Notes under the pieces: generated by a model | What the model was told of the DNA's origin: nothing | The model's database searches: none | Seen by the model: only the letters and a program-made list of their open reading frames with translations | Shown here: positions 36,101 to 60,716 of the stretch, one piece after another | Layout: each line of letters opens with the position of its first letter | Position numbering within the stretch: position 1 is the stretch's first letter | Assembly (NCBI RefSeq): GCF_019599465.1 | Contig: NZ_RKLR01000003.1 | Span: 124,001-188,000, forward strand | Source: Haloarcula rubra | GTDB lineage: Archaea; Halobacteriota; Halobacteria; Halobacteriales; Haloarculaceae | DNA: 64,000 nt | Direction: 5' to 3' | Made by a program: the position numbers and the translations under genes

Positions 36101-38313
36101 TGTCGCGGGCCGACGACATCCGCGACCTGATGCGGACGGAGGGGGCCGCCATCGCCGAGAACACGCAGGGGTTCAACGAGGGCCGCTACGCGTCGGTCGC
36201 GGACTTAGCGGACTACGAAGAGCTCAAGAGCGAGGCCAGAGCCATCAAGGAGGACGCTATCGAGCGCTTGCCCGAACTCGTCGACCAGTTGGAGACGGCG
36301 GTCACGGAGAACGGCGGCACGGTGTACCTCGCCGAGGACGCCGCCGACGCCAACGAGTACATCCGGTCGGTCGTAGCCGAACGCGACGCCGACCGCGTCG
36401 TCAAGAGCAAGTCGATGACGACCGAGGAACTGGAAGTCAACGAGGCGCTGGAAGCCGACGGCGTGGACGTGCTGGAGACCGACCTCGGGGAGTGGGTCCT
36501 CCAGTTGGCCGAGGAAGCGCCCTCACACATCGTCGCGCCGGCCATCCACAAGTCCCGCGAGTCCATCGCGGACCTGTTCGAGGAACTGTTCGACCCCGAG
36601 GAACCGCTGGAGACGGCCGAGGAGCTGACACGGTTCGCGCGGGCGGAACTGGGCGAGCGCATCGTCGACAGCGAGGTCGGCATCACGGGGGCGAACTTCC
36701 TCGCCGCCGAGTCGGGGACGATGGCGCTCGTGACGAGCGAGGGCAACGCCCGGAAGACGGTGGCGGCGACGGACACCCACGTCGCCGTGGCCGGCGTCGA
36801 GAAGGTCGTCCCGAGCGTCGCCGACTTCCAGCCGTTCGTCGAACTCATCGGTCGGTCGGGTACCGGTCAGGACATCACCTCGTACGTCTCACTGTTGACG
36901 CCGCCCGTCGAGACGCCCGTGGTCGACTTCGCCGACGACGAGACGCCCCTCTCCGAGTTCGAACACGACCGGGACTTCCACCTGGTGCTGGTCGACAACG
37001 GCCGGATGGCGATGCGGGACGACGACCAGTTGCGCGAGACGCTGTACTGCATCCGCTGCTCGGCGTGTGCGAACTCGTGTGCCAACTTCCAGAGCGTCGG
37101 CGGGCACGCCTTCGGCGGCGAGACGTACTCGGGCGGCATCGCCACGGGGTGGGAAGCCGGCATCGAGGGCCTCGACACCGCCGCCGAGTTCAACGACCTC
37201 TGTACGGGGTGCACCCGGTGTGTCGACGCCTGTCCGGTCGGAATCGACATCCCGTGGATAAACACAGTCGTCCGGGACCGCATCAACCGCGAGGGAGAGC
37301 GACCCGCGGACTGGCTGGTCGACGGCTTGACACCCGACGAGGAAGACGAGGGGGCACCCCTCCAGAAGCGTTTCTTCGGTAACTTTGCCACCGTCGCGAG
37401 ACTCGGCAGTGCGACGGCACCCGTCTCGAACTGGCTGGCCGACACGCAGACCGCGCGGTGGCTACTGGACTGGGTACTGGGTGTTGACCCGCGCCGGGAC
37501 CTCCCGCAGTTCCAGCGCGAGACGTTCGTCGAGTGGTTCGCGGACCGGGAATCGACCGTCGAGAACCCCCGCCGGCGGGCCGTCGTGTATCCGGACCTCT
37601 ACACCGACCACGTGCAGGTCGACCGCGGGCGGGCGACCGTCGAAGTCCTCGAAGCCCTCGGCGTCGACGTCGTGGTCCCGTCCGTTCCCTCCAGCGGTCG
37701 CGCGCCGTTCTCGCAGGGGATGGTCACGACGGCGACGGACCACGCCGAACGCGTCCACGAGACGCTGGAACCCTACATTCGAGACGGGCGAGACGTCGTC
37801 GTCATCGAACCGAGCGACCACGCGATGTTCGTCTCGGAGTACGAGAAACTGGTCGACGAGTCCTCCTTCGAGACGCTCGCGGAGCACAGCTACGAGGTCA
37901 TGGAGTACGTCTACGGACTGCTCGAAGGCGGTGCGGACGAGGGCGCGTTGGCCGGCGTCGACACCGGGGAGATCGCCTACCACGCCCACTGCCAACAGCG
38001 GACGCTCGGTCTCGAAGCCCACACCGTCGCCGTCCTCGAACGACTGGGCTACGACGTGGCCGTCTCCGACGTCGAGTGCTGTGGGATGGCGGGGAGTTTC
38101 GGCTACAAGAGCGACTACTACGAACTCAGCGTGGACGTGGGCGAACGGTTGGCCGACCAGCTAGAGACCGAGGACGTCGCAGAGCGGCCGGTGGTCGCCA
38201 GCGGTACCTCCTGTCTCGAACAGATAGACGCGCTCCTGGAGCGCAAGCCGCGCCATCCCGTCGAACTGCTGGCACCGGATACGGACGGTGAACCCGGCGA
38301 GCGGCCTCAGTAG
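36100..38313 (+). CDS. Fused LutB-LutA iron-sulfur lactate oxidation protein
   Basis: A 737-residue fusion. The N-terminal LUD/LutB part (about 1-300, GITGANFLAAESGTMALVTS near 194) is followed by two 4Fe-4S motifs, C317-x2-C-x2-C-x3-C and C368-x2-C-x2-C-x3-C, and a LutA-like CCG domain in the C-terminus (VECCGMAGSFGYK at 658-670). The first CCG copy appears degenerate, since VYPDLYTD lacks cysteines. It would pass electrons from lactate to the respiratory chain. ATG 36100, not GTG 36097, is the better start. The stop overlaps the converging aldehyde dehydrogenase stop by 7 nt. Confidence 0.85.
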   Translation: MSRADDIRDLMRTEGAAIAENTQGFNEGRYASVADLADYEELKSEARAIKEDAIERLPELVDQLETAVTENGGTVYLAEDAADANEYIRSVVAERDADRVVKSKSMTTEELEVNEALEADGVDVLETDLGEWVLQLAEEAPSHIVAPAIHKSRESIADLFEELFDPEEPLETAEELTRFARAELGERIVDSEVGITGANFLAAESGTMALVTSEGNARKTVAATDTHVAVAGVEKVVPSVADFQPFVELIGRSGTGQDITSYVSLLTPPVETPVVDFADDETPLSEFEHDRDFHLVLVDNGRMAMRDDDQLRETLYCIRCSACANSCANFQSVGGHAFGGETYSGGIATGWEAGIEGLDTAAEFNDLCTGCTRCVDACPVGIDIPWINTVVRDRINREGERPADWLVDGLTPDEEDEGAPLQKRFFGNFATVARLGSATAPVSNWLADTQTARWLLDWVLGVDPRRDLPQFQRETFVEWFADRESTVENPRRRAVVYPDLYTDHVQVDRGRATVEVLEALGVDVVVPSVPSSGRAPFSQGMVTTATDHAERVHETLEPYIRDGRDVVVIEPSDHAMFVSEYEKLVDESSFETLAEHSYEVMEYVYGLLEGGADEGALAGVDTGEIAYHAHCQQRTLGLEAHTVAVLERLGYDVAVSDVECCGMAGSFGYKSDYYELSVDVGERLADQLETEDVAERPVVASGTSCLEQIDALLERKPRHPVELLAPDTDGEPGERPQ

Positions 38314-39749
38314 TTCAGGTACACCGTCTTCGAGAGGGTGTAGAAGTCGAGGCCGGCGTCGCCCTGTTCGCGGTACGTCTCGCTGGAGGAGTCCTTCATG
38401 CCGCCGAAGGGAACGTGGAGTTCGAGTCCGGTCGTCTTCTCGTTGACCTTCACGACGCCGGACTCGGACTCGTCGACGAAGTCGTGGGCCTCCGAGAGGT
38501 CCTGCGTGACGATACTCGCGGAGAGGCCGTAGCGTACGTCGTTGGCCACCTGGAGACCTTCCTCGTAGCTACCGACCGGGATGACTGCGAGGACCGGGCC
38601 GAATATCTCTTCCTGTGCGATACGCATGTCCGGGTCTACGTCGGAGAACACCGCCGGTTCGACGAAGAACCCGTCGCCGGCGTCGACTTCACCGCCGCCG
38701 GTTGCGAGCGTCGCACCCTCGGACTCCCCGATGTCGACGTACTCCAGCGTGCTGTCGAGTTCGCTCTGGTTGACCTGCGGGCCCATGTCCGCACCCGCCA
38801 GACCGGGACCGACCTCGATGGCCTCTGCGGCCGCCACGACGCCCTCGACGAACTCGTCGTAGACGTCCTCGTGGACGATGGCTCGCGAGGTGGCCGTACA
38901 GGCCTGCCCGGTGACGCCGAACGCGCCGCTGGCAGCGATGTCGACGGCCTCGTCGACGTCGGCGCTGTCCATCACGACCACGGGGTTCTTTCCGCCCATC
39001 TCCAACTGGACGCGCTTGCCCGTCTCGTTGGCCTGTTCGCCGACGGTGTTCCCGACGGCCGAACTCCCGGTGAAGGAGACGGCGTCGATGGCCTCGTGCG
39101 TCGAGAACGTCTTGCCGACGGCGCTCCCCGGCCCGGTCACGTAGTTGAGGGCGCCGTCCGGGAGACCCGCCTCGTCGAGACACTCGACGAGTTTCCGGGC
39201 GACGTTCGGCGCGGCGGAGGCGGGCTTGAACGCGACGGTCGTCCCCGTCGCCAGCGCCGGCGCTATCTTCCACGCCGGGATGGCGATGGGGTAGTTCCAC
39301 GGCGTGATGAGGCCGGCGACGCCGACGGGTTCGTTCACCGTGTACAGCGTCGTGTCGCGACTGCTCGAGGACTTGACCGTCCCGCCGATGTCGCTGGCCT
39401 TCGCCCCGTAGTACGAGAAGATGTCGATGGCTCGCTGAACCTCGCCGGCGGCCTCGGGCCGGGCCTTCCCTTCCTCGCGGACGAGCGTCTCTGTCAGTTC
39501 GTCCTTGCGCGCTTCGAGGGCCTGTGACGAAGCCCGCAGAATCGCCCCGCGCTCTGGGCCCGGTGTGTCGGCCCACTCGTCGCTCGCGGCGGCCGCGGCC
39601 TCGACGGCGCGTTCGGCGTCCTCCACGCCGGACTGCTGGAACGCGCCGACGACGTCGCTCCGGTCGGCGGGGTTGCGGTTCTCGAACGTCTCGCCCGTCT
39701 CGGCGGCTACCCACTCGCCGTCGACGTAGTTGTGGTACGTATCGACCAT
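38307..39749 (-). CDS. xacF: Aldehyde dehydrogenase (2-oxoglutarate semialdehyde type)
   Basis: NAD(P)-dependent aldehyde dehydrogenase of 480 residues. LITPWNYPIAIPAWKIAPAL near 140, LEMGGKNPVVV with the catalytic Glu near 250 and GQACTATSRAIV with nucleophilic Cys near 284 are canonical. Divergent pairing with the KdaD/XacE-type gene suggests it oxidises the 2-oxoglutarate semialdehyde produced there to 2-oxoglutarate. ATG 39749 is preferred because an ACTTTATCG TATA box (39776-39785) sits about 32 nt before it; GTG 39764 would be too close. Confidence 0.82.
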   Translation of the reverse strand: MVDTYHNYVDGEWVAAETGETFENRNPADRSDVVGAFQQSGVEDAERAVEAAAAASDEWADTPGPERGAILRASSQALEARKDELTETLVREEGKARPEAAGEVQRAIDIFSYYGAKASDIGGTVKSSSSRDTTLYTVNEPVGVAGLITPWNYPIAIPAWKIAPALATGTTVAFKPASAAPNVARKLVECLDEAGLPDGALNYVTGPGSAVGKTFSTHEAIDAVSFTGSSAVGNTVGEQANETGKRVQLEMGGKNPVVVMDSADVDEAVDIAASGAFGVTGQACTATSRAIVHEDVYDEFVEGVVAAAEAIEVGPGLAGADMGPQVNQSELDSTLEYVDIGESEGATLATGGGEVDAGDGFFVEPAVFSDVDPDMRIAQEEIFGPVLAVIPVGSYEEGLQVANDVRYGLSASIVTQDLSEAHDFVDESESGVVKVNEKTTGLELHVPFGGMKDSSSETYREQGDAGLDFYTLSKTVYLNY

Positions 39750-39775
39750 CGAATCAACCGACACGCCCGGGCTAC

Positions 39776-39834: not shown

Positions 39835-40698
39835 ATGCGCTACTACCGCACAGTCGCGGGCGGAGAGCCACGACTCGTCGCGCGGGACGGCGACGACGCC
39901 TACGACCTCACCGCCGCCCGGTCCAGCGTGACGGCGTTCACCGACCTCGCGCACGTCGCGGACGTCGCCGGCGAATCTCCCGACGCCGTGGCACGTGGGT
40001 TGTTCGAGGACGCCGTCGCAGTCGACCGACCCGACGCCGCCGACTGCGCCGCCCCGCGGGTCGACGAGGTGTGGGCCGCCGGCGTCACCTACGAGATAAG
40101 CGAGCAGGCCCGCGAGGCCGAGAGCGGGATGCCCGAGATGTACCTCGACGTGTACGAGGCCGAGCGGCCGGAGATTTTCTTCAAGGCGACGCCGAGCCGG
40201 ACGGTCGGCCCCGACGAGGCGGTCGGTATCCGCGGCGACTCCGAGTGGGACGTCCCGGAACCGGAACTCGGTATCGTCCTCCACGAGGGCGACATCGTGG
40301 GATACACCGTCGGCAACGACGTGAGCAGTCGCTCTATCGAAGGCGAGAACCCGCTGTATCTCCCGCAGGCGAAGATCTACGACCGCGCCTGCTCGCTCGG
40401 GCCCTGCGTCGCGACGCCGGCGGCCGTCGGCGACCCCCACGACCTGGAGATGACGATGACCGTCGACCGCGACGACGAGCGCGTGTACCAGGGCGTCACG
40501 TCGACGGGAGAGATGGTCCGGACGTGCGAGGAACTCGTCTCGTTTCTCACCCGCCACAACAGGATTCCGGAGACGACGGTGTTGCTGACCGGGACGTCGC
40601 TGGTCCCCGAAGAGGGGTTCACGCTCCAGCAGGGCGACCGCATCGACGTCCACATCGAGAGTATCGGTCGCCTCTCGAACTCGGTGACGGTGGTCTGA
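39835..40698 (+). CDS. xacE: 2-keto-3-deoxy-pentonate dehydratase (KdaD/XacE, FAH fold)
   Basis: A 287-residue fumarylacetoacetase-fold protein. ERPEIFFKATPSRTVGPDE near residue 102, WDVPEPELGIVLHEGDIVGYTVGNDVSSR near 138-166 and ENPLYLPQAKIYDRACSLGP near 171 follow the KdaD pattern of 2-keto-3-deoxy-arabinonate/xylonate dehydratases. The carboxylate metal ligands are the E of EPE and the D of GNDV. The product, 2-oxoglutarate semialdehyde, is the presumed substrate of the divergently encoded dehydrogenase. A diketo-acid hydrolase of the rhamnose pathway has the same fold and is the main alternative. Confidence 0.78.
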   Translation: MRYYRTVAGGEPRLVARDGDDAYDLTAARSSVTAFTDLAHVADVAGESPDAVARGLFEDAVAVDRPDAADCAAPRVDEVWAAGVTYEISEQAREAESGMPEMYLDVYEAERPEIFFKATPSRTVGPDEAVGIRGDSEWDVPEPELGIVLHEGDIVGYTVGNDVSSRSIEGENPLYLPQAKIYDRACSLGPCVATPAAVGDPHDLEMTMTVDRDDERVYQGVTSTGEMVRTCEELVSFLTRHNRIPETTVLLTGTSLVPEEGFTLQQGDRIDVHIESIGRLSNSVTVV

Positions 40699-41208: not shown

Positions 41209-41301
41209 ACCGGCCGTTCGCATTCAGGGCAGAAAAACGACGCGACTGGACAGAGAGAAACGCTGTTCACTTCTGCGGAACAGGTTTTCCCACGGACTCG
41301 G

Positions 41302-42399
41302 TCACCACGACGTGATGGTCACGTCCCTGAGCGGCCGGTCCAGCGGGATAGACACCTGTCCACCGGTGTAGTGCGAGATGTAGAACCCGGCGATTATCTC
41401 CAGCGACCGGGTGGCTTCTTCGCCCGTCGACGGGTTCGAGCGGTCGCCGTCGAGGACGCGGACGACGTCGCCGGCCGCGTTCGCGAACGCGTCCCGGTAG
41501 TCCTCGTCCCACGTCCACGCGCCCTCGATGCCCGGCAGCGACGCCTCGACGTGGTCGCCGTCCTCCAGGCGCCAGTAGCGCCACTCGCCGTCGTCGTTGT
41601 TGAGGTAGAGCTTGCCCTCGCTGCCGACGAACTGGAGCGTCATCGACGACTCCGCCCGGGGGATGGTGCAGTCGATAGTGACGAAGGTGCCGTCGTCCAT
41701 CACGACGAACCCGCCGCCGCCGGCGTCGTCGACCCGTTCGGCCGCTTCCAGCGAGTCGACGGCCTCGTTCTCGCCGGTGATGTACCCGGAGACGGTGTCG
41801 GCCCGGTCGTCCAACAGGTAGACGAGCGTATCCAGCAGGTGTGTGGAGTTGCGGAGCAGTTCCATCCGGAACTGGGTCGCGACCGAGTGCACGTCGCCGA
41901 TGATGTCCTCGTCCTGCACGAGGTCGCGGAGTCGCTGGAGTTTGGTCGTGAAGCGAAAGGAGTGGTTCACGAGCAGTTCGGTGTCCGTCTCCGCACAGAC
42001 GTCGACCATCTCCTCGGCGTCGGTCACCGAGGAGGCGATGGGTTTCTCGCACCAGACGAGCGACGGGTCGGCCGCCGACCGGGCCGCGTCGACGACGTGG
42101 TCGGCGTGGAGATACGACGGCGTGCACACCGAGACGACGTCTAGATCCTCGGCGTCGAGCATCGCCTCGTGGCCGACGTACCGCCGGTCCGCGGGGACGT
42201 CCCAGGCCTCGCCGAACCGGGTCAGTTTCTCCTCGTCGACGTCGGCCACGGCGACGAGTTCGATGCCCTCCGTGGCGTCGTAGCCGCCCGCGTGACTGGC
42301 TCTGACCTTCTTCTGCCCGATGTCTTCCTCGTCGTGCATCCCGAGGATGCCCATCCCTGCGATACCGCCCGTTCCGATGATACCGGCTCTGTACGTCAT
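41302..42399 (-). CDS. Gfo/Idh/MocA oxidoreductase
   Basis: NAD(P)-dependent sugar dehydrogenase of 365 residues. AGIIGTGGIAGMGILGMH opens the Rossmann fold, but a long insert follows (residues 20-45). LVWCEKPIASSV near 113 is the EKP motif and LLVNHSFRFTTKL near 140 a substrate loop. It begins one base after the stop of the enolase-superfamily gene, so the two form one operon and likely act on the same sugar or its acid. Substrate is unknown. Confidence 0.85.
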   Translation of the reverse strand: MTYRAGIIGTGGIAGMGILGMHDEEDIGQKKVRASHAGGYDATEGIELVAVADVDEEKLTRFGEAWDVPADRRYVGHEAMLDAEDLDVVSVCTPSYLHADHVVDAARSAADPSLVWCEKPIASSVTDAEEMVDVCAETDTELLVNHSFRFTTKLQRLRDLVQDEDIIGDVHSVATQFRMELLRNSTHLLDTLVYLLDDRADTVSGYITGENEAVDSLEAAERVDDAGGGGFVVMDDGTFVTIDCTIPRAESSMTLQFVGSEGKLYLNNDDGEWRYWRLEDGDHVEASLPGIEGAWTWDEDYRDAFANAAGDVVRVLDGDRSNPSTGEEATRSLEIIAGFYISHYTGGQVSIPLDRPLRDVTITSW

Positions 42400-42400
42400 C

Positions 42401-43576
42401 TCACTCGTAGGTGTGCCGACTTCCGGTCTGGTTGTCCTCGATGTAGTCCCAGTCGTAGTCGACGCCCAGTCCCGGCCCGTCCGGGACTTCGACCATGCCG
42501 TTCTCGTCGACGGTGTCTATCATGTCGGAGTAGTCGCCCTCGTACACCGGCGGTTGCGTGTTGGGACAGTCCGGGTGGACCAGCGCGAGTTCGTAGTAGT
42601 TCGTGTTGCGGATGGCCGCGATGCAGTGGCGCTGGGCGGGGCCGGGCGCGTGGAACTCCACGTCGAGGCCGAACCCCTCTGCGACGCTGGCCCGCTTCAT
42701 CGCCCCGGTGATGCCGGCGTCGTACTCCGGGTCCGCACGCAGGAAGTCCGTCGCCTCGTTGGCGACGAAGTCCGTCGCCGGTTCGAGGCCGCGGACGTGT
42801 TCGGTCTGGAGGATGGGCGTGTCCAGCGCCTGCCGGAGTTTGCGGTGGCCGTGCTGTGAGATGCCGCCGTCCCGGTACGGGTCCTCGTACCAGAAGAAGC
42901 CCACCTCGTCCAGCGCACGGCCGAGTTTCAGCGCGTCGGCGAACGTCTCCAGTTCGCAGGCCGGGTCGTGCATCAGATCCATCTCGTCGCCGACCCGGTC
43001 CCCGACGGCGTGGACCGCCGCTATCTCTCTGTCGAGGTCACGCGCGCCCTCGCTCCCGCCCCAGCCGTGAATCTTGAACGCGCCGTAGCCCAGTTCCAGA
43101 CACTCCTCGGCGAAGTCCGCGAAGGCTTCGGGCGTGTCGAGGCCGCCGTTCTCGTCGCCGTGATACGTCGACGCGTAGGCGGGGAACTTCTCTCGGTAGG
43201 TGCCCAGCAGTTCGTGGATGGGTGCGTCGTGGTACTTCCCGGCGAAGTCCCAGAGGGCGATGTCGATGGGCCCCATCCCCATCCGGTCGTACTTCCGGAG
43301 CGCTCGCTTCACTTCGCTCCAGTGTTTCTCCCGTTCCAGCGGGTTCTTCCCCACGAGGTAGTTCGCGAACGTGTTTATCTGGGCCGCGCCCGGCGAGTTA
43401 CCGCCGACGTACTCGCCCGTGATGCCCTCGTCCGTGTGAATCTTGAGACCGAACAGCTTTCGTTCGGTCACCGACCCGGGTTCGTAGACGAGGTTGAACC
43501 CGTGTTGGTCTGTGCCCACGTCCTCGATAGGATAGGAGAACTCCACTGACTCGATGCTGGTAATCTCCGGCGCCAT
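42401..43576 (-). CDS. Enolase-superfamily sugar-acid dehydratase (mandelate racemase type)
   Basis: A 391-residue MR/MLE-type protein. The barrel has K168-x-H170 in place of KxK. Likely metal ligands are D204, E231 (WYEDPYRDGG) and E259 (LQTEHVRG), with D282 and H309 (VEFHAPG) after. Such enzymes dehydrate aldonic acids to 2-keto-3-deoxy acids. The paralogue at 45466 shares every one of these blocks. ATG 43576 fits the TATA box at 43601-43610. Candidate substrates are xylonate/arabinonate or a deoxyhexonate; I cannot choose from sequence. Confidence 0.85.
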   Translation of the reverse strand: MAPEITSIESVEFSYPIEDVGTDQHGFNLVYEPGSVTERKLFGLKIHTDEGITGEYVGGNSPGAAQINTFANYLVGKNPLEREKHWSEVKRALRKYDRMGMGPIDIALWDFAGKYHDAPIHELLGTYREKFPAYASTYHGDENGGLDTPEAFADFAEECLELGYGAFKIHGWGGSEGARDLDREIAAVHAVGDRVGDEMDLMHDPACELETFADALKLGRALDEVGFFWYEDPYRDGGISQHGHRKLRQALDTPILQTEHVRGLEPATDFVANEATDFLRADPEYDAGITGAMKRASVAEGFGLDVEFHAPGPAQRHCIAAIRNTNYYELALVHPDCPNTQPPVYEGDYSDMIDTVDENGMVEVPDGPGLGVDYDWDYIEDNQTGSRHTYE

Positions 43577-43600
43577 ACAGGTACCATCAGATACCATCAC

Positions 43601-43610
43601 AATAAACGTG
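43601..43610 (-). promoter_or_regulatory. TATA box of enolase-family/Gfo-Idh operon
   Basis: The minus strand reads CACGTTTATT, about 28 nt before ATG 43576. Confidence 0.55.
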
Positions 43611-43734
43611 CGTGCTCCCCCGGGCGATTGCCGCCACGCGGTGGCCGGCCGCGGCCGTCACAGACGACCGTGCAGCCAGTCTGGCCGCTCTCACCGGTGG
43701 ATTCATGCCGTCGTGGTGAGACGATTACTGTGTC

Positions 43735-44541
43735 ATGGTAGGGCACACCGAGTACGACTACACCGGCGAGTCCGCTATCGTCACCGGGTCGACGAAGGGC
43801 ATCGGCCGGGGCATCGCCGAGGGACTCGCCGACGCCGGGGCGAACGTCGTCGTCAACGCCCGGGACGAGAACGAGGTGACCGACGCCGCCGACGAACTGG
43901 CCGACCGCGGGCCGGGCGACGCTGTCGGCGTCGCGGCGGACGTCGGCGACCCGGCGGCCATCGAGCGACTCGTCGAGACGGCCGTCGACGCCTTCGGGGA
44001 GATAGACCTCCTCGTCAACAACGCGGCGACGTGGCCCCGCGAGGACTCGCTCGTCGAGTCGACGCTGGACCAGTGGAACCGGACGATGGACGTCAACGTC
44101 CGGTCGCAGTACTACGCGGCGAAACTCGTCGCCGAGCACATGATAGCCGAGGGTGTCGAGGGGTGTATCGTCAACCACACGAGTCAGGCGGGCGACCGGC
44201 GCACCGGCCCGTTCGGCCTGTACGGCATCTCGAAGACGTCGATAAACGGGCTGACGTGGCGGATGGCACAAGAACTGGCCGAGCACGGTATCAGGATGAA
44301 CGCCGTCTCGACGGACGTCACGGAGACGGCCCAGACCCGCTACGAGGCCGAGGTGGAAGCGAGGGACGACCCGGACCGGACGGCCGAGGAGATACTCCGG
44401 GAGCGCGGCGAGAAACGGCCGCTCGGCCGACTCGGCCAACCCGAGGACCTCGCGGACGCGGTGCTGTGGCTGGCCAGCGACCGGGCCGACTACGTGGTCG
44501 GCGACGTCGTCAGAGTGAGCGGCGGGGGGAATCTGGAGTGA
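43735..44541 (+). CDS. SDR-family sugar dehydrogenase
   Basis: Short-chain dehydrogenase of 268 residues. VTGSTKGIGRGIAEGLADAG at 16-35 is the cofactor site, LLVNNAATWPRED near 92 the NNAG-equivalent, and YGISKTSINGL near 163 gives the YxxxK pair. It lies 4 nt before the amidohydrolase gene. With an enolase-type dehydratase on each side, it is a candidate for oxidising an aldose (L-rhamnose, L-fucose or a pentose) to its lactone, or a 2-keto-3-deoxy acid. Confidence 0.85.
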   Translation: MVGHTEYDYTGESAIVTGSTKGIGRGIAEGLADAGANVVVNARDENEVTDAADELADRGPGDAVGVAADVGDPAAIERLVETAVDAFGEIDLLVNNAATWPREDSLVESTLDQWNRTMDVNVRSQYYAAKLVAEHMIAEGVEGCIVNHTSQAGDRRTGPFGLYGISKTSINGLTWRMAQELAEHGIRMNAVSTDVTETAQTRYEAEVEARDDPDRTAEEILRERGEKRPLGRLGQPEDLADAVLWLASDRADYVVGDVVRVSGGGNLE

Positions 44542-44545
44542 TTCG

Positions 44546-45415
44546 ATGCGATTCGTAGACACGCACACGCATACGTGGGGCCCCGACACCGAGGAACTGC
44601 CGTGGCCGGTCGACATCCTGCCGCCGGGCTGGGAGGGCGCGTACACCGCTCACGACCTGATAGCCGACATGGACGCCGCCGGCGTCGAGGAGAGCGTCGT
44701 GGTCACGACGCCGCTGTACGGCCGCGGCGTGCGTGCCAACGAGTACACGATGCGGTCCATCGAGGCCTATCCCGACCGGCTGTGGGGCGTCGGCCTGATG
44801 GACTTCTACGGTGACCCCGAACAGGTCCGGGCGGACCTCCGGCGCGTCGTCGGCCACGACCGGATGCTCGGCGTCAGGATGCACGCCTGTCTGGCCTACG
44901 AGGAACACTCGACGGAACTGGACCGGACCGCCGACTGGATACTCGACGACGCCCTCGAACCCGTCTGGGACGAGGCCGCCGCGCAGGATACCGCGGTGTT
45001 CGTCTTCCCGAAGGCCGACCAGATTTCGATGCTCGCGACGCTGGCAGAGCGGTACCCGGACGTTCAGATAGTCGTCGACCACATGGCCTACCCCGACGAG
45101 ACGACCGACCCGGACGAGGCACCGTGGACCGACTTCGAATCGCTGGCCGACCACGACAACGTCGCCGTCAAGGTGAGTTCGCTCCCCCGGTCGAGCGACG
45201 AGTCGTGGCCCTACGAGGACCTCTGGGACTACGTCCGACACCTCGCGGACTGGTTCGGGACCGAGCGGCTGATGCTCGGGTCGGACTACCCGTGGATGGA
45301 CGACTGGGCCGACTACGAGGCCTGTCTCTCGTGGGTAGAGGAGGCCCCGTTCCTCTCGGCCCGGGACTACTCGTACATGGCCCACCGGACGTTCGAGGCC
45401 GTTCACGAGCGGTAG
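44546..45415 (+). CDS. Amidohydrolase-family lactonase-like protein
   Basis: TIM-barrel amidohydrolase_2 protein of 289 residues. The first strand has FVDTHTHTWGP, the usual HxH metal pair. IVVDHMAYP near 173 and LMLGSDYPWMDDW near 247-259 supply later ligands. Family members hydrolyse sugar lactones (L-fucono- or L-rhamnono-lactone) or decarboxylate. Placement directly after an SDR and before an enolase-type dehydratase favours the lactonase role of an oxidative sugar pathway. Confidence 0.82.
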   Translation: MRFVDTHTHTWGPDTEELPWPVDILPPGWEGAYTAHDLIADMDAAGVEESVVVTTPLYGRGVRANEYTMRSIEAYPDRLWGVGLMDFYGDPEQVRADLRRVVGHDRMLGVRMHACLAYEEHSTELDRTADWILDDALEPVWDEAAAQDTAVFVFPKADQISMLATLAERYPDVQIVVDHMAYPDETTDPDEAPWTDFESLADHDNVAVKVSSLPRSSDESWPYEDLWDYVRHLADWFGTERLMLGSDYPWMDDWADYEACLSWVEEAPFLSARDYSYMAHRTFEAVHER

Positions 45416-45435
45416 ACTAGTTACTCACCCTAGAT

Positions 45436-45442
45436 GTTTATC
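45436..45442 (+). promoter_or_regulatory. TATA box before second enolase-family gene
   Basis: GTTTATC is centred 27 nt before ATG 45466, so the dehydratase gene has its own leaderless promoter despite the upstream same-strand genes. Confidence 0.55.
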
Positions 45443-45465
45443 CTGCCACTGCGTCTTACGTCGGT

Positions 45466-46632
45466 ATGGCCGCGACGATAGAGCGCATCGAGACCGTCGA
45501 GTTCAGCTACGACTTGCCGGACGTGGGGACGCCGCCGGGCGGGTTCGACGTCGTCTACGACCCCGGCAACGTGATGCAGCGCCGTCTGTTCGCCGTGAGA
45601 ATCACGGTTAGCGACGGACTAACCGGGGAGTACGTCGGTAGCAACTCGCCGGGTGCGGCCCAGATAAACACCGTCGCCGACTATCTCCTCGGCCGCGACC
45701 CGACGCGGCGCGAACACCACTGGTCGGAACTGAAACGGGCGCTCCGGAAGTACGACCGGATGGGCATCGGCCCGCTGGACATCGCCCTCTGGGACTACGC
45801 GGGCCAGAAGCACGGCGCGCCGATTCACGAGTTGCTGGGGAGCTATCGCGAGCGACTGCCGGCCTACGCGTCGACGTATCAGGGCGACCGGAGCGGGGGG
45901 CTGGACTCGCCGGCGGCCTACGCCGACTTCGCCGAGGCGTGTCTGGAGATGGGGTACCCGGGGTACAAGGTCCACGGCTGGGACGGCGACTGGCGCGACC
46001 CGGACCTGTTGGAAGCCACGGTGCGCGCCGTCGGGGACCGGGTCGGCGACGAGATGGACCTGATGGTCGACCCGGCGTGTGACCTCGACACCTTCGCCGA
46101 GGCCCTGCAGGTCGGCCGGGCCTGTGACGACCACGGCTACCTCTGGTACGAGGACCCGTACCGGGACGGCGGCATCTCACAGCACGGCCACCGGAAGCTA
46201 CGCCAACAAATAGACACGCCGCTCCTCCAGACCGAGCACGTTCGTGGACTGGAACCCCACACCGACTTCGTGGCGACGGAGGCGACGGATTTCGTCCGGG
46301 CGGACCCGGAGTACGACGCCGGCATCACCGGGGCGACGAAGATTGCGAACGTCGCAGAGGGGTTCGGGCTGGACGTGGAGTTCCACGCGCCTGGCCCGGC
46401 ACAGCGTCACTGCATGGCTGCGACGCGGAACGCGAACTACTACGAGATGGCGCTGGTCCACCCCGACGCACCGAACACGACGCCGCCGGTGTATCGGGGC
46501 GACTACCGCGACGAGATAGACGCCGTCGACGACGCGGGTACCGTGCCCGTCCCGGACGGCCCGGGGCTGGGCGTCGACTACGACTGGGACTACATCGAGG
46601 CCAACGAGACGGGACGGCGAGTGTACGAGTGA
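45466..46632 (+). CDS. Enolase-superfamily sugar-acid dehydratase, paralogue
   Basis: A 388-residue close paralogue of the 42401 protein, sharing blocks such as SPGAAQIN, RALRKYDRMG, WYEDPYRDGGISQHGHRKLR and VEFHAPGPAQRHC. K168-x-H170, D202, E229 and E257 are the catalytic/metal positions. They differ mostly in surface loops and at GTPPGGFDVVYDP versus GTDQHGFNLVYEP near residue 21, a loop that in this superfamily contacts substrate. The two may process related acids from different sugars. It converges with the ATPase gene at 46648. Confidence 0.85.
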   Translation: MAATIERIETVEFSYDLPDVGTPPGGFDVVYDPGNVMQRRLFAVRITVSDGLTGEYVGSNSPGAAQINTVADYLLGRDPTRREHHWSELKRALRKYDRMGIGPLDIALWDYAGQKHGAPIHELLGSYRERLPAYASTYQGDRSGGLDSPAAYADFAEACLEMGYPGYKVHGWDGDWRDPDLLEATVRAVGDRVGDEMDLMVDPACDLDTFAEALQVGRACDDHGYLWYEDPYRDGGISQHGHRKLRQQIDTPLLQTEHVRGLEPHTDFVATEATDFVRADPEYDAGITGATKIANVAEGFGLDVEFHAPGPAQRHCMAATRNANYYEMALVHPDAPNTTPPVYRGDYRDEIDAVDDAGTVPVPDGPGLGVDYDWDYIEANETGRRVYE

Positions 46633-46647: not shown

Positions 46648-47445
46648 TCAGAGGTCGGCCGTCTGTTCGCCACGCTCCGCGTCGGGCTGCCCGGCGACCA
46701 TGCGCTTGACGATTTCGTCCTGGTCGAACTCGTCGGCGTCGATGATGCCGGCACTGCGACCCTGATGGAGGACGTGGACGCGGTCCGCGGCCCGCCTGAT
46801 GTAGTCGAGGTTGTGGGAGATGAGGACGATGGAGATGCCCTGACTCTGCATCCGGTCGATAAGTTGGAGGACCCTGTCGGCACCCTCGACCGAGAGGGCG
46901 CTCGTCGGTTCGTCCATGATGACGATTTTCGGGTCCGAGAGGAGCGTCCGCGAGATGCTGACGAGTTGCCGTTCGCCGCCCGAGAGGTTCGACACTTTCT
47001 CGGCGACGTCGACGTGTATCTCGAGGTCGTCGAGCAGTTCCTGTGCGCGCTCGCGCATCGCCGACTTGTCGAGCACGCCGAAGAGGCTGTCGGGCCCGCT
47101 GACCGACTCGCGGCCGAGAAAGATGTTCTGTGTGACAGTGAGGTTGCCGGCGACGGCGAGGTCCTGAAACGTCGTCTCGATGCCCAAATCCTTCGCGACG
47201 CGTGGGTTCGGAATCTCGACGCGCTCCCCGTCGACGTGAATCGTCCCCGAATCCGGCTGGAGCGCCCCGGCCAGACACTTGATGAGGGTCGACTTCCCGG
47301 CGCCGTTGTCGCCCGCCAGCGCGAGAATCTCGTTGCGTCGGAGGCGGAACGTGACGTCTTCCAGCGCTACCACCTCGCCGAACGTCTTCGTTATCCCCTC
47401 CATCTCGACGATGTGGTCGACGTCGCGCTGAGTCGCCTCGGCCAT
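46648..47445 (-). CDS. ABC sugar importer ATPase, single domain (CUT2 type)
   Basis: A 265-residue nucleotide-binding subunit. Walker A GDNGAGKST near 45, signature LSGGERQ near 145 and Walker B VIMDEPTSAL near 164 are intact. CUT2 transporters of the ribose type usually have a double-length ATPase (about 500 residues), so this is the single-domain form, which would work as a homodimer. It faces away from its permease and binding-protein genes. ATG 47445 fits a TATA box at 47468-47474. Confidence 0.88.
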   Translation of the reverse strand: MAEATQRDVDHIVEMEGITKTFGEVVALEDVTFRLRRNEILALAGDNGAGKSTLIKCLAGALQPDSGTIHVDGERVEIPNPRVAKDLGIETTFQDLAVAGNLTVTQNIFLGRESVSGPDSLFGVLDKSAMRERAQELLDDLEIHVDVAEKVSNLSGGERQLVSISRTLLSDPKIVIMDEPTSALSVEGADRVLQLIDRMQSQGISIVLISHNLDYIRRAADRVHVLHQGRSAGIIDADEFDQDEIVKRMVAGQPDAERGEQTADL

Positions 47446-47467
47446 GGCTGTGAAATGTCGGTGGGAC

Positions 47468-47474
47468 AATAAAA
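47468..47474 (-). promoter_or_regulatory. TATA box of ATPase gene
   Basis: The minus strand reads TTTTATT, 26 nt before ATG 47445. Confidence 0.55.
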
Positions 47475-47530
47475 GCGTTCGCCCCGACGGGGCCGGGAGT
47501 GAGCGGCGGCAGACCTGTCAACTGTGCCAA

Positions 47531-47540
47531 AGTTATAATA
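47531..47540 (+). promoter_or_regulatory. TATA box of permease gene
   Basis: AGTTATAATA is centred about 28 nt before ATG 47565, forming a divergent promoter pair with the ATPase gene. Confidence 0.6.
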
Positions 47541-47564
47541 CCGCGACGGCAGAACCGATACGGC

Positions 47565-48551
47565 ATGGCGCGCACGGCCGTCGACTTCGGCGCTGCCCGG
47601 GAGCAGGTGACGCTCGAACAGCTAGGCCAGTACGGGCCGATACTCGGTCTCGTCGGCCTCTACGTCGCGTTCACCGTCCTGAACGACCGGTTCCTCACCG
47701 TGGGCAATCAGGTGAACGTCCTCCAACAGGTGTCGATTATCGGCATCATGGCCATCGGCGTCACCTTCCCGATTCTCTGTGCGGAGATCGACCTGAGCAT
47801 CGCACAGGTGATGGAGATATCGGGGCTCACCATCGCGACGCTCGCCGTCGGCGCTCGCCTGTTCGAGGGCTTCGCAATCCCCGTCGTAGCGGCCATCGTC
47901 GTCGGCCTGTCGCTGGGCGGGACGTTCGGCGCCGTCTCGGGGTTCGTCACCGCCCGGTTCGGCGTCCCCTCCTTCATGACGACGTTGGCGATGCTGTTCC
48001 TCGCCGACGGGCTCGGCCTCATCGTCTCGGGGAACCGCCCCATCATCGGACTACCGCCGTCGCTGACCGCACTGGGCGGGTCGCGAGTGTTCGGCTTCCC
48101 CAGCATCGTCGTCGTCTTCCTCACGTTACTCGTCGTCTCCCAGTTGCTCCTCTCGTACACCAAGTTCGGCCTCTACATCTACGCTATCGGGGGCGACAGG
48201 CAGGCCGCAGAACGCATGGGTATCAACGTCCCGGTGGTGCGCCTCGGGACGCTGGTCATCTCCGGCGTGTTCGCGGGCATCGCTGGCCTCGTCACCCTCG
48301 GCCGTCTCGGGAGCGCCATCCCGACGATGGGGTCCGGACTCCTCCTCCCGCCCATCGCAGCCGTCATCCTCGGGGGCGCGAACCTCTTCGGCGGGTCCGG
48401 GAACATGGTCGGAACGCTCGTCGGGGTCCTCATCCTCGGCGTCCTCCAGAACGGCCTGAACCTCATGGGCGTCGGACCCTCGGGCCAACTCGTCGCGCAG
48501 GGCATCGTCCTGATGCTGGCCGTCCTCGCGAACGTCGTCGGACAGGACTGA
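47565..48551 (+). CDS. ABC sugar importer permease (RbsC/CUT2 type)
   Basis: A 328-residue permease with eight to ten hydrophobic helices. TFPILCAEIDLSIAQVMEISGL near residue 65 and IGGDRQAAERMGINV near 210 are the family's conserved loops, the second being the coupling-helix region for the ATPase. GGANLFGGSGNMVGTLVG near 270 is also typical. ATG 47565 fits the TATA box. Its partners are the divergent ATPase at 46648 and the binding protein at 48624. Confidence 0.88.
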   Translation: MARTAVDFGAAREQVTLEQLGQYGPILGLVGLYVAFTVLNDRFLTVGNQVNVLQQVSIIGIMAIGVTFPILCAEIDLSIAQVMEISGLTIATLAVGARLFEGFAIPVVAAIVVGLSLGGTFGAVSGFVTARFGVPSFMTTLAMLFLADGLGLIVSGNRPIIGLPPSLTALGGSRVFGFPSIVVVFLTLLVVSQLLLSYTKFGLYIYAIGGDRQAAERMGINVPVVRLGTLVISGVFAGIAGLVTLGRLGSAIPTMGSGLLLPPIAAVILGGANLFGGSGNMVGTLVGVLILGVLQNGLNLMGVGPSGQLVAQGIVLMLAVLANVVGQD

Positions 48552-48623: not shown

Positions 48624-49700
48624 ATGTCACGCGACATTCCCAGACGGCGGTTTATCCGTACCGGAGCGATTGTAGGGACGGCGCTCGTCGCTGGCTGTGG
48701 TGGTGACGGCGGCGACGGCGGCGGTGACGGTGGCGGAACGACCGAGACGACCGCTAGCGACGGTGGCGACGGTGGTGACGGTGGCGGTGACGGCGATGAC
48801 GGCGAGCAGACGACGACCGAGAGCGGACCGCCCTCCGTCGCGCTCTCGGTCCCGTCGCTGGAGTTCACGTTCTTCGCCCGGATGCAGAACGCGTTCGACG
48901 CCGCCAAGAGCGAAGGGACCGTCGCCTCGGACTCCACGTTCTACGACGCCGGGAACTCACAGAGCACGCAGGTCTCCGACGTCGAGACGGCCATCTCGAA
49001 CGAGGTAGACCTCCTGCTCATCTCGGCCATCACGGCCGAGGGCGTCATCAGCGCTATCCGACAGGCCAACGACGCCGGCATCCCCGTCGTCGCCATCGAC
49101 CGGAACGTCGCCGAGGGGGATACCGTGAGTTACGTCGCCTCCGACAACGTCCAACTCGGCCGCCGGTCGACGGAGCTCTGTCTCTCCTTCATGCAGGAGA
49201 TGGGCCAGCAGGACACCTACAACGTCGTCCAGCTGGAGGGCACCCCCGGCGCGAGCGTGACCAACGACCGGGGCGAAGGGTTCAGCAACGCCGTCAGCGA
49301 GAACGACAGTCTGAACCGCCTCGCGAGCCAGACTGGCGAGTTCTCCACCCAGAACGCCCTGAGCGTCATGGAGGACTTCATCACCCAGTACGGCGACGAG
49401 ATAGACGGCGTGTTCTGCCAGAACGACCTGATGGCGCTCGGCGCCCATCGGGCGCTCCAGAACGCGAACATGTCGGTGCCAGTCACCGGCATCGACGGTA
49501 CGGAGGCGTGGGTGCAGTTGTTCTCGGACAACCAGTTCTACGGGACCATCGCACAGTTGCCCGAGGAGATGGTCGACACCGCCATCGAGACGGGGAAGGC
49601 CCACCTCGCCGGGGACGACGTCGAGGACACCATCGTCATCGAAGGGCTCGAAGTCACTCAAGCGAACGCCTCCGACTACCTCGGCCAGTACTTCGGCTGA
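48624..49700 (+). CDS. Tat-exported sugar-binding lipoprotein (RbsB-like)
   Basis: A 358-residue periplasmic-binding-protein-like lipoprotein. Twin arginines in PRRRFIRTG precede a hydrophobic stretch and a lipobox ending at Cys25 (LVAGC), so it is folded before export and lipid-anchored. A Gly/Asp linker (residues 26-60) leads to the ligand domain, with AIDRNVAEGDTVSYVASDN near 160 and the VTGIDGTEAW hinge near 290. It belongs to the type I ribose/galactose-binding fold. It is the ligand receptor of the transporter encoded upstream. Confidence 0.88.
   Translation: MSRDIPRRRFIRTGAIVGTALVAGCGGDGGDGGGDGGGTTETTASDGGDGGDGGGDGDDGEQTTTESGPPSVALSVPSLEFTFFARMQNAFDAAKSEGTVASDSTFYDAGNSQSTQVSDVETAISNEVDLLLISAITAEGVISAIRQANDAGIPVVAIDRNVAEGDTVSYVASDNVQLGRRSTELCLSFMQEMGQQDTYNVVQLEGTPGASVTNDRGEGFSNAVSENDSLNRLASQTGEFSTQNALSVMEDFITQYGDEIDGVFCQNDLMALGAHRALQNANMSVPVTGIDGTEAWVQLFSDNQFYGTIAQLPEEMVDTAIETGKAHLAGDDVEDTIVIEGLEVTQANASDYLGQYFG
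48699..48803. repeat. Gly/Asp-rich low-complexity linker coding repeat
   Basis: Encodes a GGDGGDGGGD-type stretch with a Thr/Ser break at about residues 39-45. It is a flexible acidic spacer between lipid anchor and ligand domain, common in haloarchaeal lipoproteins. DNA is a degenerate GGCGAC/GGTGAC repeat. Confidence 0.7.
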
Positions 49701-49802: not shown

Positions 49803-50663
49803 ATGACACAGGACACGATTCACGCGACGTGGGGGGATTGGCTCGCCGAGGAGATAGCGCAGGCCACGCCCGACGGGGTCGCCGTCTGGTACCTCGGCTG
49901 TAACGGCTTCGTCCTGAAGTCGGCGACGACGACGCTGTACGTCGACCCGTACTTCGGTGACGGCGACCCGCCGAAACTCGTCCGGATGATTCCGGTCCCG
50001 ATGGACTCCGCAGACGGGACGGCCGACGCCGTCCTCGTCACGCACGAACACATCGACCACATGCACCCGCCGTCGTACGGACCGCTCCTCGACGACGGCG
50101 GGACGCTCCACGCTCCGCAAGCGTCGTACGACGCGCCCGACTACGACGGCCACCTGCGAGTCGACGAGGACCAGCGCTCGGTCGTCGACGAGGGCGACTC
50201 GTTCACCGTCGGGGACTTCACGGTCCACGTCAGAGGCGCCGACGACGGCGACGCCATCGAACCGGTCTCCTACGTCGTCGAACACGACGCGGGGACGTTC
50301 TTCCATCCGGGGGACAGCAAACCGGCCGACGCCTTCGCAGGAATCGGCGAGGCGTTCGACGTCGACCTCGGCGTCCTCGCGTTCGGCACCGTCGGCCGCA
50401 TCCACCACACCGAGGACGGCGAGACGCGACCGACGAAGTGGTACATGTCCGAGAACGAGGTGGTCGAGGCCGCGAACGACCTGCAACTGGACCGCCTCCT
50501 GCCGTCGCACTTCGACATGTGGAAGGGCGTCGCCGGTGACCCGAAGGTCCTGCACGAACACGTCGCGTCCTACGAGTATCCCCGCACGCTGGAGGTGGTC
50601 CGCGTCGGCGACCGGGTCGACGTCGGGTCCTCGGGCGTCGTCCCGCCGTCGACGCACCGCTGA
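49803..50663 (+). CDS. Metallo-beta-lactamase-fold hydrolase (UlaG-like)
   Basis: A 286-residue MBL-fold enzyme related to UlaG-type lactonases. VLVTHEHIDHMHP near residue 80 is the HxHxDH metal site. FFHPGDSKPADAF near 163 supplies the bridging Asp and a late LPSHFDMWKG the final His. No signal peptide is present. It follows a sugar-importer operon by about 100 nt, so lactone or phosphodiester opening in sugar breakdown is likely. The exact substrate is unknown. Confidence 0.85.
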   Translation: MTQDTIHATWGDWLAEEIAQATPDGVAVWYLGCNGFVLKSATTTLYVDPYFGDGDPPKLVRMIPVPMDSADGTADAVLVTHEHIDHMHPPSYGPLLDDGGTLHAPQASYDAPDYDGHLRVDEDQRSVVDEGDSFTVGDFTVHVRGADDGDAIEPVSYVVEHDAGTFFHPGDSKPADAFAGIGEAFDVDLGVLAFGTVGRIHHTEDGETRPTKWYMSENEVVEAANDLQLDRLLPSHFDMWKGVAGDPKVLHEHVASYEYPRTLEVVRVGDRVDVGSSGVVPPSTHR

Positions 50664-50666: not shown

Positions 50667-51749
50667 CTAGCCGAGTTCGACGACGCGCCCGTCCTCGGCG
50701 GCCTCGTAGACGCCCTTGAGCGCCCGGATGTCGACCAGTCCGTGTTCCCCGTCGGCGTACGGGTCCTCGCCGGTCAGCAGGCAGTGCGAGAAGTACTCGA
50801 ACTCCTCTTCCATCTGGTCTATCTGCTCGAAGGAGACGTCGATGTCCGACCCGCCGTGGGAGACGTGGAGTCGCCGCTCGTCCCACGGGTAGAAGGCCGG
50901 TTCGACGCGGACTTCCCCCTCCGTGCCGGTCACTCTGATGTGACTCGCCATCGCGGCGTTCTGACTGGCCGTGCAGACGGCGAACGTGTGGTCCGGGAAG
51001 TCGACCTGGAAGGCGGCGTGTTCGTCCGGGACGTCGTCGAACTCCGGTCGTACGGACGCGACCGACCCCTGCACGCGCACCGGGTCGGCGTCTAACAGGA
51101 ACCGAGCGGTGTTGAGCGAGTAGATGCCGATGTCCATCGTCGCACACCCGCCGGACAACTCCCAGTCGAGCCGCCACTGGTCCGGGTCCGGGACGAGTTC
51201 GAGGATGGGTTCGCTCATGTTGCCGTGGACGAACACCGGGTCGCCGACGTACCCCGCGTCGACGACGTCCTTGGCCCGCCGGACGGCCGGTTCGGTGTGC
51301 ATCCGGTAGGCGACCATCAGCGTCACGTCGTGTTCGTTACACGCCGCGACCATCTGCTCGGCACGGTCGACGGTCGCCTCCATCGGCTTCTCGCAGAGGA
51401 CGTCCTTCCCGAGTTCGGCAGCCGTCTCGACGAACGGCAGGTGCCGGGCGTTCGGCGTGACGACGTAGACGGCGTCGTAGGCCTCGCTGGCGGCGCCGTC
51501 GTGGAACTCCTCGTAGGTGACGGCGTGGTCGACCGTCGCCGAGTCGGCGGCGACGGACTCGGCTTTCTCCCGGTCGCCGCTGACCAGCACCGTCGTCTCA
51601 CAGAGGTCACCCGACGCGACGGCCGGCATCGCCTGCTCCCGGGTCCACCAGCCGAGCCCCACCATCGCGAACCTGACGGGGTCGTCCGTCTCGGTCACGT
51701 GCTGCCAGTCGCGTCGGTCGAACTCGTCTGTCAGCGCGGTCAGTTCCAT
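50667..51749 (-). CDS. xacA: D-xylose 1-dehydrogenase (NADP+), Gfo6 type
   Basis: A 360-residue Gfo/Idh/MocA enzyme. DEFDRRDWQ...[21 protein letters not shown] at the N-terminus and [17 protein letters not shown] closely follow the haloarchaeal Gfo6/XacA pattern. [18 protein letters not shown] near 115 is the EKP motif. It converts D-xylose (and L-arabinose) to the lactone, the first step of the oxidative pentose pathway. It lies 48 nt after the HpcH/HpaI-type aldolase gene on the same strand. Confidence 0.85.
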
Positions 51750-51797: not shown

Positions 51798-52556
51798 CTA
51801 GCCGGTCACCGCCTCAACGACGTCTTCGAAGGCGCGGGTGAGGACGGCCCCGTCGACGCCGATGGCGACGTACTGTGCGCCCGCGGCTATCCACTGCCGG
51901 GCCATCTCGGGGTCGTCGGCGTACGTCCCGACGACCGTCCCCGCGTCCGCCGCCCGGTCGCACACCTCCTGCATCAGGGCTTCGACGCGGTCGTCCCGCA
52001 CCTGCCCCGGGATGCCGAGCGACTGTGACATGTCGTACGGGCCGAGGAACAACACGTCGATGCCGTCGACGGCGACGATGTCGTCGAGGTTCTCCACGCC
52101 TCGCTCGCCCTCGATGTGGACGACGACAGCCGTCGTCTCGTTCTGCCGGTCGGTGTAGTCGTCGCCCCCGGTGTACCCTCCGGCGCGGACGTACGGGGAG
52201 AACCCGCGGGACCCGAGCGGGTCGAAGCGTGCGTGGTCGACGGCCGCCCGGGCGTCCGCGCCCGTCTCGACCTGTGGAATCTCGACGCCCGCCGCGCCGA
52301 TGTCGAGCGCTCGCTGTATCTCGGCTTCAGAGTTGTTCCGGACTCGAACGACGGGGGCGGCACCGGCGCGCTCCGCGGCCGCACACATGCCGACGCAGGA
52401 CTCGGCGGTCAGCGGCCCGTGTTCCTGGTCGAGGATGGTGAAGTCGAACCCGGCGACGCCGGCTATCTCGGCGGCCATCGGCGAGTCGATGAGTTGGAAC
52501 GTCCCGAGGAGCGTCTCGCCGTCCAGTAACCGCGCTCTCAGCGACGGTGAGGCCAT
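51798..52556 (-). CDS. HpcH/HpaI-type 2-keto-3-deoxy-acid aldolase
   Basis: A class II aldolase of 252 residues, metal-dependent, cleaving 2-keto-3-deoxy acids to pyruvate and an aldehyde. ILDQEHGPLTAES near residue 42, the Glu ligand in VEIPQVETG near 99 and FLGPYDMSQSLGIPGQ near 162 are family motifs. Together with XacA it would offer an alternative branch yielding pyruvate and glycolaldehyde. ATG 52556 is favoured by an AGTTAGTTTCAAG box centred 29 nt before it. Confidence 0.85.
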   Translation of the reverse strand: MASPSLRARLLDGETLLGTFQLIDSPMAAEIAGVAGFDFTILDQEHGPLTAESCVGMCAAAERAGAAPVVRVRNNSEAEIQRALDIGAAGVEIPQVETGADARAAVDHARFDPLGSRGFSPYVRAGGYTGGDDYTDRQNETTAVVVHIEGERGVENLDDIVAVDGIDVLFLGPYDMSQSLGIPGQVRDDRVEALMQEVCDRAADAGTVVGTYADDPEMARQWIAAGAQYVAIGVDGAVLTRAFEDVVEAVTG

Positions 52557-52682
52557 ACCGTACGTCGGTCGTCGTGTCACTTGAAACTAACTTCTGCTCC
52601 AAGGTCCGACAGTCCTCGTCACGGGAATCAGATTGAGAGTGTCCGCCCTCCCGAACGGCCGGTCGCCCGTCCAGTGGCCCGT

Positions 52683-53444: not shown

Positions 53445-53453
53445 ATGGCCGGT
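53436..53453. promoter_or_regulatory. 18-bp perfect palindrome at IclR start
   Basis: ACCGGCCATATGGCCGGT is its own reverse complement and spans the IclR start codon. A TATA-like CTATATG at about 53465-53472 places the transcript start inside it, so it is a candidate operator for autoregulation. Confidence 0.6.
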
Positions 53454-53516
53454 ACGGAACCCTCGCATATAGATGTGTTCACCACGGCGGAACAGGTGTG
53501 CGCCTATCCGGGACGA

Positions 53517-56822: not shown

Positions 56823-56858
56823 GCGCGGCATCTAACGACACTCCACTCCCCCTACACT

Positions 56859-60621: not shown

Positions 60622-60716
60622 AGCCCATCTCCCGTCGGCCCGGTACAAATACTCTCGGGGTCGTGCGGGTAGCGGCCGGCACAACACTCATTGAGACTGC
60701 CCGAGAGGTGTCGAAC

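Follow-up and report, generated by a model that had tools for sequence, protein, structure and literature searches.

We find that a 64,000-nucleotide stretch of contig NZ_RKLR01000003.1 of Haloarcula rubra (hereafter the window; the host genome is 4.67 Mb) carries an island in which two oxidative sugar-degradation modules appear to be joined on one common end, each with an enolase-superfamily dehydratase of its own (E1 and E2). At positions 42401–46632, E1 and E2 bracket genes for a short-chain dehydrogenase/reductase (SDR) and an amidohydrolase (Amidohydro_2), as described in an earlier note on this DNA; all four genes are intact and their Pfam families agree with that description, and the functional unit is wider (about 35.6–61.1 kb; Table 1). 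The four-gene arrangement is not due to chance: seven genomes of the genus share it, and wherever a longer stretch was read, it belongs to an extended block. The assignment that we favor, and to which we give about an even chance, is that E1 is an L-fuconate/D-arabinonate dehydratase, that E2 acts as dehydratase in a ribose-type module and that the two modules are fused on a shared end; the assignment of E2 is the less sure of the two. The composite island itself is real and conserved, and it is a variant of oxidative sugar pathways already known in haloarchaea rather than a new type of system.

From the observed families, catalytic residues, synteny and phylogeny, we infer the following substrates, sequence of dehydrogenase steps and mechanism. 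Module A (SDR, the Amidohydro_2 protein as lactonase, E1 and the Gfo/Idh/MocA oxidoreductase GFO1, with a mutarotase and the ATP-binding cassette (ABC) transporter ABC2) would oxidize an L-fucose-configured sugar (i.e., L-fucose and/or its pentose homologue D-arabinose), a dehydrogenase yielding the lactone, the lactonase the aldonate and E1 the 2-keto-3-deoxy acid. Module B (the transporter ABC1, the oxidoreductase GFO2, a metallo-beta-lactamase-fold (MBL) protein and E2) would carry out the same steps on an aldopentose, most likely D-ribose. An FAH-family protein and an ALDH would then convert 2-keto-3-deoxy-D-pentonate to alpha-ketoglutarate semialdehyde and on to alpha-ketoglutarate. Both dehydratases would use the mandelate racemase mechanism, in which a base on the KxH strand, or the Asp-His pair, abstracts the C2 proton with the help of Mg2+ before the C3 hydroxyl leaves. 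An oxidative, non-phosphorylative route of the aldose to 2-keto-3-deoxy-acid type, and two sugars rather than one, are both supported, in line with the earlier note.

E1 and E2 belong to a K-x-H family of the enolase superfamily

E1 and E2, each composed of the Pfam domains MR_MLE_N and MR_MLE_C, are 73% identical in protein (387 residues) and 77% identical in DNA (1083 bases), and are thus less alike than the "near-identical" paralogues for which they were first taken. Residues common to the two (E2 numbering) include K168-x-H170, the acidic D202, E229 and E257 at the expected metal-ligand positions, and D280/H307; the two domains, three acidic ligands, bases on both faces and the fold place them in the enolase superfamily, mandelate racemase type. 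They fall outside the strict mandelate racemase subgroup, which has K-x-K on the second barrel strand. All seven residues (K168, H170, D202, E229, E257, D280 and H307) are unchanged in 109 of the 109 relatives that we collected, including bacterial ones at 44–54% identity, and the nearest experimental structures, 1RVK and 4HCD, also have K-x-H, which reads K-L-H where they are aligned. Because the motif does not vary among these relatives and the best PDB match has it too, it marks a wider family and tells nothing particular about the pair: the shared active-site blocks pointed out earlier are there, but they are not special to E1 and E2, and K-x-H as a novelty is ruled out.

E2 was modeled with AlphaFold2 (mean pLDDT 87.9), and the model matches 4HCH and 1RVK with a Z score of 41. 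This Agrobacterium enolase-superfamily protein ("D-glucarate dehydratase" in the title of 4HCH) is the best match in both sequence and fold and has K-x-H in common with E2, but at 27–28% identity it is too distant for its substrate to be transferred. E1 and E2 score under the NCBIfam cut-offs for the L-rhamnonate, galactonate, gluconate/galactonate, archaeal arabinonate, talarate/galactarate and mannonate dehydratase equivalogs, and they are the only K-x-H family members in the host genome. The bacterial relatives (L118, L116 and L117, from Paraburkholderia, Bosea and Marinovum; L and G numbers are our labels for loci and genomes) are 44–54% identical to E2, and the annotated ones lie beside sugar ABC transporters; transfer between domains is possible.

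E1 and E2 represent two older lineages

That the K-x-H subgroup might be uncharacterized, as had been proposed, does not wholly apply. According to PMC8551123, Haloarcula species degrade D-ribose oxidatively; the pentose dehydrogenase of this route is promiscuous, a pentonolactonase takes part, and the ribonate dehydratase, which is highly specific, represents a novel family within the enolase superfamily. In the Haloarcula loci L051, L052, L055, L075 and L080, a K-x-H gene adjoins a Gfo6-type dehydrogenase, an MBL protein and an alpha-ketoglutarate semialdehyde dehydrogenase (KGSADH). By this synteny it is the obvious candidate for the reported D-ribonate dehydratase (RDH), which the K-x-H family most likely contains.

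In a tree of 82 rows, the E1, E2 and RDH groups each have a single origin. E1 and RDH lie within one 29-row clade (100/92); the clade of E2 has 13 rows (100/90) and includes sequences of other contexts. Neither E1 nor E2 is a member of the Haloarcula RDH clade, E1 being in a neighboring clade and E2 in another lineage. Forcing the E1 and E2 copies together is worse by 64.6 log-likelihood units (p-AU 0.024 in an approximately unbiased test whose groups were named once a first tree had been seen). Because the branches of the bacterial outgroup are long, the deep forks could not be rooted with certainty. The duplication around the shared enzymes that the earlier note envisaged is unlikely, at least as a recent event, because E1 and E2 appear to belong to separate older lineages and a joint clade is disfavored; a local tandem duplication is disfavored by the same trees. 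The appearance of duplication came from the similarity of E1 and E2 and from the location of E2. The SDR/amidohydrolase pair goes with E1, not with E2 (L125, L014 and, in part, L138).

The company of E1 points to an L-fucose-configured sugar

The set E1, GFO1, SDR and Amidohydro_2 is found in genomes without E2, as in Haloarcula halophila, where the order is E1-GFO1-SDR-amidohydrolase-FAH-ALDH-IclR-PfkB-ABC2 and both E2 and the ABC1-MBL-GFO2 block are missing. Across the family, the contexts "GFO1 without Gfo6" (27 loci) and "Gfo6 without GFO1/SDR" (13 loci) are separated by one change on the tree, and E1 is of the GFO1 kind. Relatives in the GFO1 context adjoin mutarotase, amidohydrolase, SDR and alpha-L-fucosidase genes (L120, L044, L047, L064 and L067), for example in the order E-GFO1-mutarotase-amidohydrolase-alpha-L-fucosidase-ABC-SDR in L120. 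The fucosidase family GH29 or the mutarotase family RhaM is present in 12 of 72 loci outside the RDH and E2 clades, and in 0 of 15 RDH-clade loci.

The nearest NCBIfam model of the Amidohydro_2 protein is L-fucono-1,5-lactonase (NF052480), at 39 bits against a cut-off of 400, which leaves it outside that family; the SDR clears only the generic PRK07231 cut-off; and GFO1 reaches 68 bits against the D-xylose 1-dehydrogenase Gfo6 model NF041392 (cut-off 350). Within the E1 module, GFO1 may be the dehydrogenase of either the sugar or the keto-deoxy acid. An enolase-type L-fuconate dehydratase from Xanthomonas also takes D-arabinonate and epimerizes part of it to D-ribonate (PMC6336799), so that one family with L-fuconate/D-arabinonate and D-ribonate members is plausible. 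Literature searches on haloarchaeal L-fucose degradation returned nothing relevant. In Haloferax denitrificans (L012:10001-20194), an E1-GFO1 pair is found with PdxA, a four-carbon acid-sugar kinase (SBD_N/NBD_C), IclR, FAH and two galactarate/altronate-dehydratase-family genes, which would represent another pathway of the K-x-H family.

The company of E2 points to a ribose-type module

Seven genomes of the genus have both the E1 cassette and E2, and where longer stretches were read, E2 is accompanied by ABC1 and GFO2, often with the MBL protein and the aldolase. None of the seven has an RDH-clade gene, which is present in 15 other genomes of the genus. It is because of this company and of the missing RDH-clade gene that we read E2 as the dehydratase of the ribose-type module. 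ABC1, MBL and GFO2 are 58–78% identical to their counterparts in the ribose-type clusters L057 and L060, which have the same divergent ABC layout, and GFO2 is 73–79% identical to Gfo6 of RDH clusters and 54% identical to the other copy in the host genome. Elsewhere (L010:2054-11164, L149, L148 and L027), genes related to E2 are repeatedly found together with UgpC-type ABC, tartrate-dehydrogenase-like, SDR and LarA-like (lactate racemase) genes, a company that would predict an acid-sugar route in haloarchaea.

A proposed common end for the two modules

In the TYxxSxxAR segment of the FAH protein, Ser stands at the position of the hydrolase-type catalytic His, as in 27 of 27 FAH relatives; the register of the motif is our own reading and draws on what PMC6336799 says of the His/Glu pair. 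Its score against NF053535 (54 bits vs 500) likewise places it outside the 2,4-diketo-3-deoxy acid hydrolases of this family, and the protein appears to be of the dehydratase type. All D-aldopentoses, including by way of D-arabinonate, D-ribonate and D-xylonate, lead to the same 2-keto-3-deoxy-D-pentonate (PMC9795676), and since D-arabinonate and D-ribonate have this product in common, both modules can feed the FAH and ALDH steps. On chemical grounds, L-fucose cannot use this end: its dehydrated keto-deoxy acid would give a ketone, which the ALDH cannot oxidize. The GarL-like aldolase, which scores under every NCBIfam cut-off, may or may not serve as a cleaving enzyme.

Alternative assignments

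Several observations weigh against the favored assignment. With regard to E1, a search of the host genome for a GH29 fucosidase found none, and in GFO1 loci FAH and GH29/RhaM are almost mutually exclusive (10 GH29/RhaM loci lack FAH, and the window alone has both); L-fucose itself may thus not be the substrate of E1 here. Because of this near-exclusivity, and because the L-fucose product could not use the ALDH, D-arabinose is no less likely than L-fucose to be the sugar of module A in the window. With regard to E2, the seven genomes are near relatives, so that their lack of RDH does not represent seven independent events; L014 retains ABC1-MBL-GFO2 but no E2; and in Haloarcula mannanilytica, which has RDH elsewhere in its genome, an E2-clade gene (81% identical to E2) lies with UgpC-type ABC, tartrate-dehydrogenase-like and LarA-like genes, the first two of these 71% identical to genes beside a Haladaptatus relative. 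Other E2 sister copies have CoA and organic-acid genes as neighbors, and the E2 context in L135 is uninformative. E2 may therefore have been drawn from another acid-sugar pathway and then recruited to the island.

E1 is also nearer than E2 to an RDH-clade protein (80% vs 69% identity), so that E1 could be the ribonate enzyme, with E2 acting on a different acid sugar, such as one from the tartrate-dehydrogenase/LarA-type context just described. The common 29-row clade fits such a swap, but E1-type genes stay in GFO1/SDR/Amidohydro_2 loci, some with a fucosidase, one genome (G010) holds both E1 and RDH, and where the ribose-type ABC/Gfo6 block and the E1 cassette occur together, E2 was present in all cases seen except L014. 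We consider this alternative rather unlikely.

Module A might instead degrade L-fucose to pyruvate and lactate by a diketo-hydrolase route, with GFO1 as the 4-dehydrogenase and LutBC burning the lactate; this would be a variant of module A compatible with the favored assignment of E1. LutB/LutC are found next to the island as well as in some E1-type loci, and bacteria are known to degrade L-fucose in this way (PMC6336799), but the sole FAH protein seen in the island has the dehydratase-type Ser and no hydrolase-type FAH was found nearby, which makes this variant unlikely.

It is improbable that E1 and E2 are isoenzymes acting on one substrate in one SDR-lactonase-dehydratase pathway, although their predicted active-site residues are identical and both adjoin the same SDR and lactonase-like genes: E1 cassettes occur without E2, the lineages are old and separate, and substitutions such as D23P, N28D, H139Q and G173D are fixed in nine of nine E2-clade members. 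That both belong to the known Haloferax type of D-xylonate/L-arabinonate dehydratase, as the D-xylose dehydrogenase score of GFO2 and the Weimberg-type FAH and ALDH might suggest, is very improbable, since a separate Gfo6/FAH/enolase-superfamily cluster lies on another contig of the host genome and E1 and E2 are the sole members of their own family there; the xylonate-dehydratase objection to two sugars raised in the earlier note does not apply for the same reason. That cluster (L143, G000:C33:156000-175900), with a second Gfo6 (602 bits), FAH, an enolase-superfamily paralogue and a glucose-type ABC transporter, is likely the xylose/arabinose cluster of the host genome.

Gene content of the island

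The features of the island are listed in Table 1. E1 has an alternative GTG start 24 bases upstream, at 43600.

Table 1. Genes of the island, with their positions in the window
Feature	Position	Strand	Basis or remark
LutB-type lactate-oxidation protein, LUD and Fe-S domains	36097..38313	+	Partner at 35579-36100; found in some E1-type loci
2,5-Dioxovalerate (alpha-ketoglutarate semialdehyde) dehydrogenase (ALDH), shared step	38307..39764	-	NF052305 834 bits, above cut-off 750
FAH-fold protein, predicted 2-keto-3-deoxypentonate dehydratase, shared step	39835..40698	+	Ser replaces hydrolase-type catalytic His by motif reading
GFO1, Gfo/Idh/MocA oxidoreductase	41302..42399	-	Pfam GFO_IDH_MocA; 1 nt downstream of E1
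E1, MR_MLE-type acid-sugar dehydratase with K-x-H, predicted L-fuconate/D-arabinonate dehydratase	42401..43576	-	Pfam MR_MLE_N/C; tree clade common to fucosidase/mutarotase/GFO1 loci
SDR dehydrogenase, predicted aldose 1-dehydrogenase of E1 module	43735..44541	+	adh_short_C2
Amidohydro_2 protein, predicted aldono-lactonase	44546..45415	+	Pfam PF04909
E2, K-x-H enolase-superfamily dehydratase of separate lineage, predicted for ribose-type pentose module	45466..46632	+	Pfam, tree, synteny, AlphaFold2 model
ABC1 ATP-binding protein, monosaccharide type	46648..47469	-	NCBIfam; kept beside E2
ABC1 permease, nearest to ribose permease RbsC	47499..48551	+	PRK09512 196 bits, under cut-off 398
ABC1 substrate-binding protein, nearest to ribose-binding RbsB	48624..49700	+	PRK10653 170 bits, under cut-off 337
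MBL-fold hydrolase, predicted pentonolactonase	49803..50663	+	Lactamase_B_2/3; adjoins Gfo6 and K-x-H dehydratase in Haloarcula ribose-type clusters
GFO2, Gfo6-type D-xylose/pentose 1-dehydrogenase	50667..51749	-	NF041392 565 bits, above cut-off 350
HpcH/HpaI aldolase (GarL/HpaI-like)	51798..52580	-	PF03328
IclR-family regulator	52683..53468	-	Also present in related clusters
PfkB-family sugar kinase	53517..54488	-	Profile search
ABC2, second monosaccharide ABC transporter, three genes	55596..58702	+	Goes with E1 cassettes without E2
RhaM-family mutarotase	60663..61064	+	PF05336 50 bits; 62% to mutarotase of fucosidase-linked cluster

Next to ABC2 are an SMP-30 lactonase-like gene (58758-59654, +) and a UxuA-type mannonate dehydratase gene (59656-60687, -; above the NF003027 cut-off), both of which go with the E1 cassettes of L121, L125 and L138. 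A 93-residue open reading frame (ORF) at 40942-41223 (-), for which Pfam gave no match, lies between the FAH and GFO1 genes, a place in which several E1 cassettes conserve it at 55–69%. Outside the island, adjacent 207- and 670-residue ORFs lie at 29107-31787 (-), the start of the latter resembling an SMC/Rad50-type ATPase.

Discussion

The island resembles three known systems. With the Haloarcula D-ribose pathway (Johnsen et al. 2020, JB.00608-19, as described in PMC8551123), it shares an enolase-superfamily dehydratase clustered with a Gfo6-type pentose dehydrogenase, a lactonase, a 2-keto-3-deoxypentonate dehydratase and KGSADH; it differs in having two paralogues, with E1 in a fucose-like module. 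Xanthomonas FucD and the L-fucose/D-arabinose routes (PMC6336799) likewise combine a dehydrogenase, a lactonase, an enolase-superfamily dehydratase and an FAH-family step, and there D-arabinonate and D-ribonate are connected via the enediolate. The window differs in its K-x-H family and in its dehydratase-type FAH. Bacterial FucD has KxK. Gfo6, the FAH-type dehydratase and KGSADH are also found in the Weimberg-type D-xylose/L-arabinose pathway of Haloferax, whose pentonate dehydratase we took, without an alignment, to be of another superfamily branch, and for which the host genome has a cluster of its own.

A more specific proposal, which we hold only tentatively, is that the two K-x-H lineages on the island act on C2-epimeric substrates (L-fuconate/D-arabinonate for E1 and D-ribonate for E2), with E2 replacing the usual Haloarcula RDH. 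If so, E1 would be, to our knowledge, the first K-x-H L-fuconate/D-arabinonate dehydratase, and E1 and RDH would form a pair of about 80% identity with opposite C2 stereochemistry of their substrates, close enough for studying how this stereochemistry is switched. If the favored assignment is true, it would provide a substrate for genes that in many haloarchaea RefSeq calls only "mandelate racemase family protein" or "enolase C-terminal domain-like protein", and would predict the use of fucose/D-arabinose in archaea.

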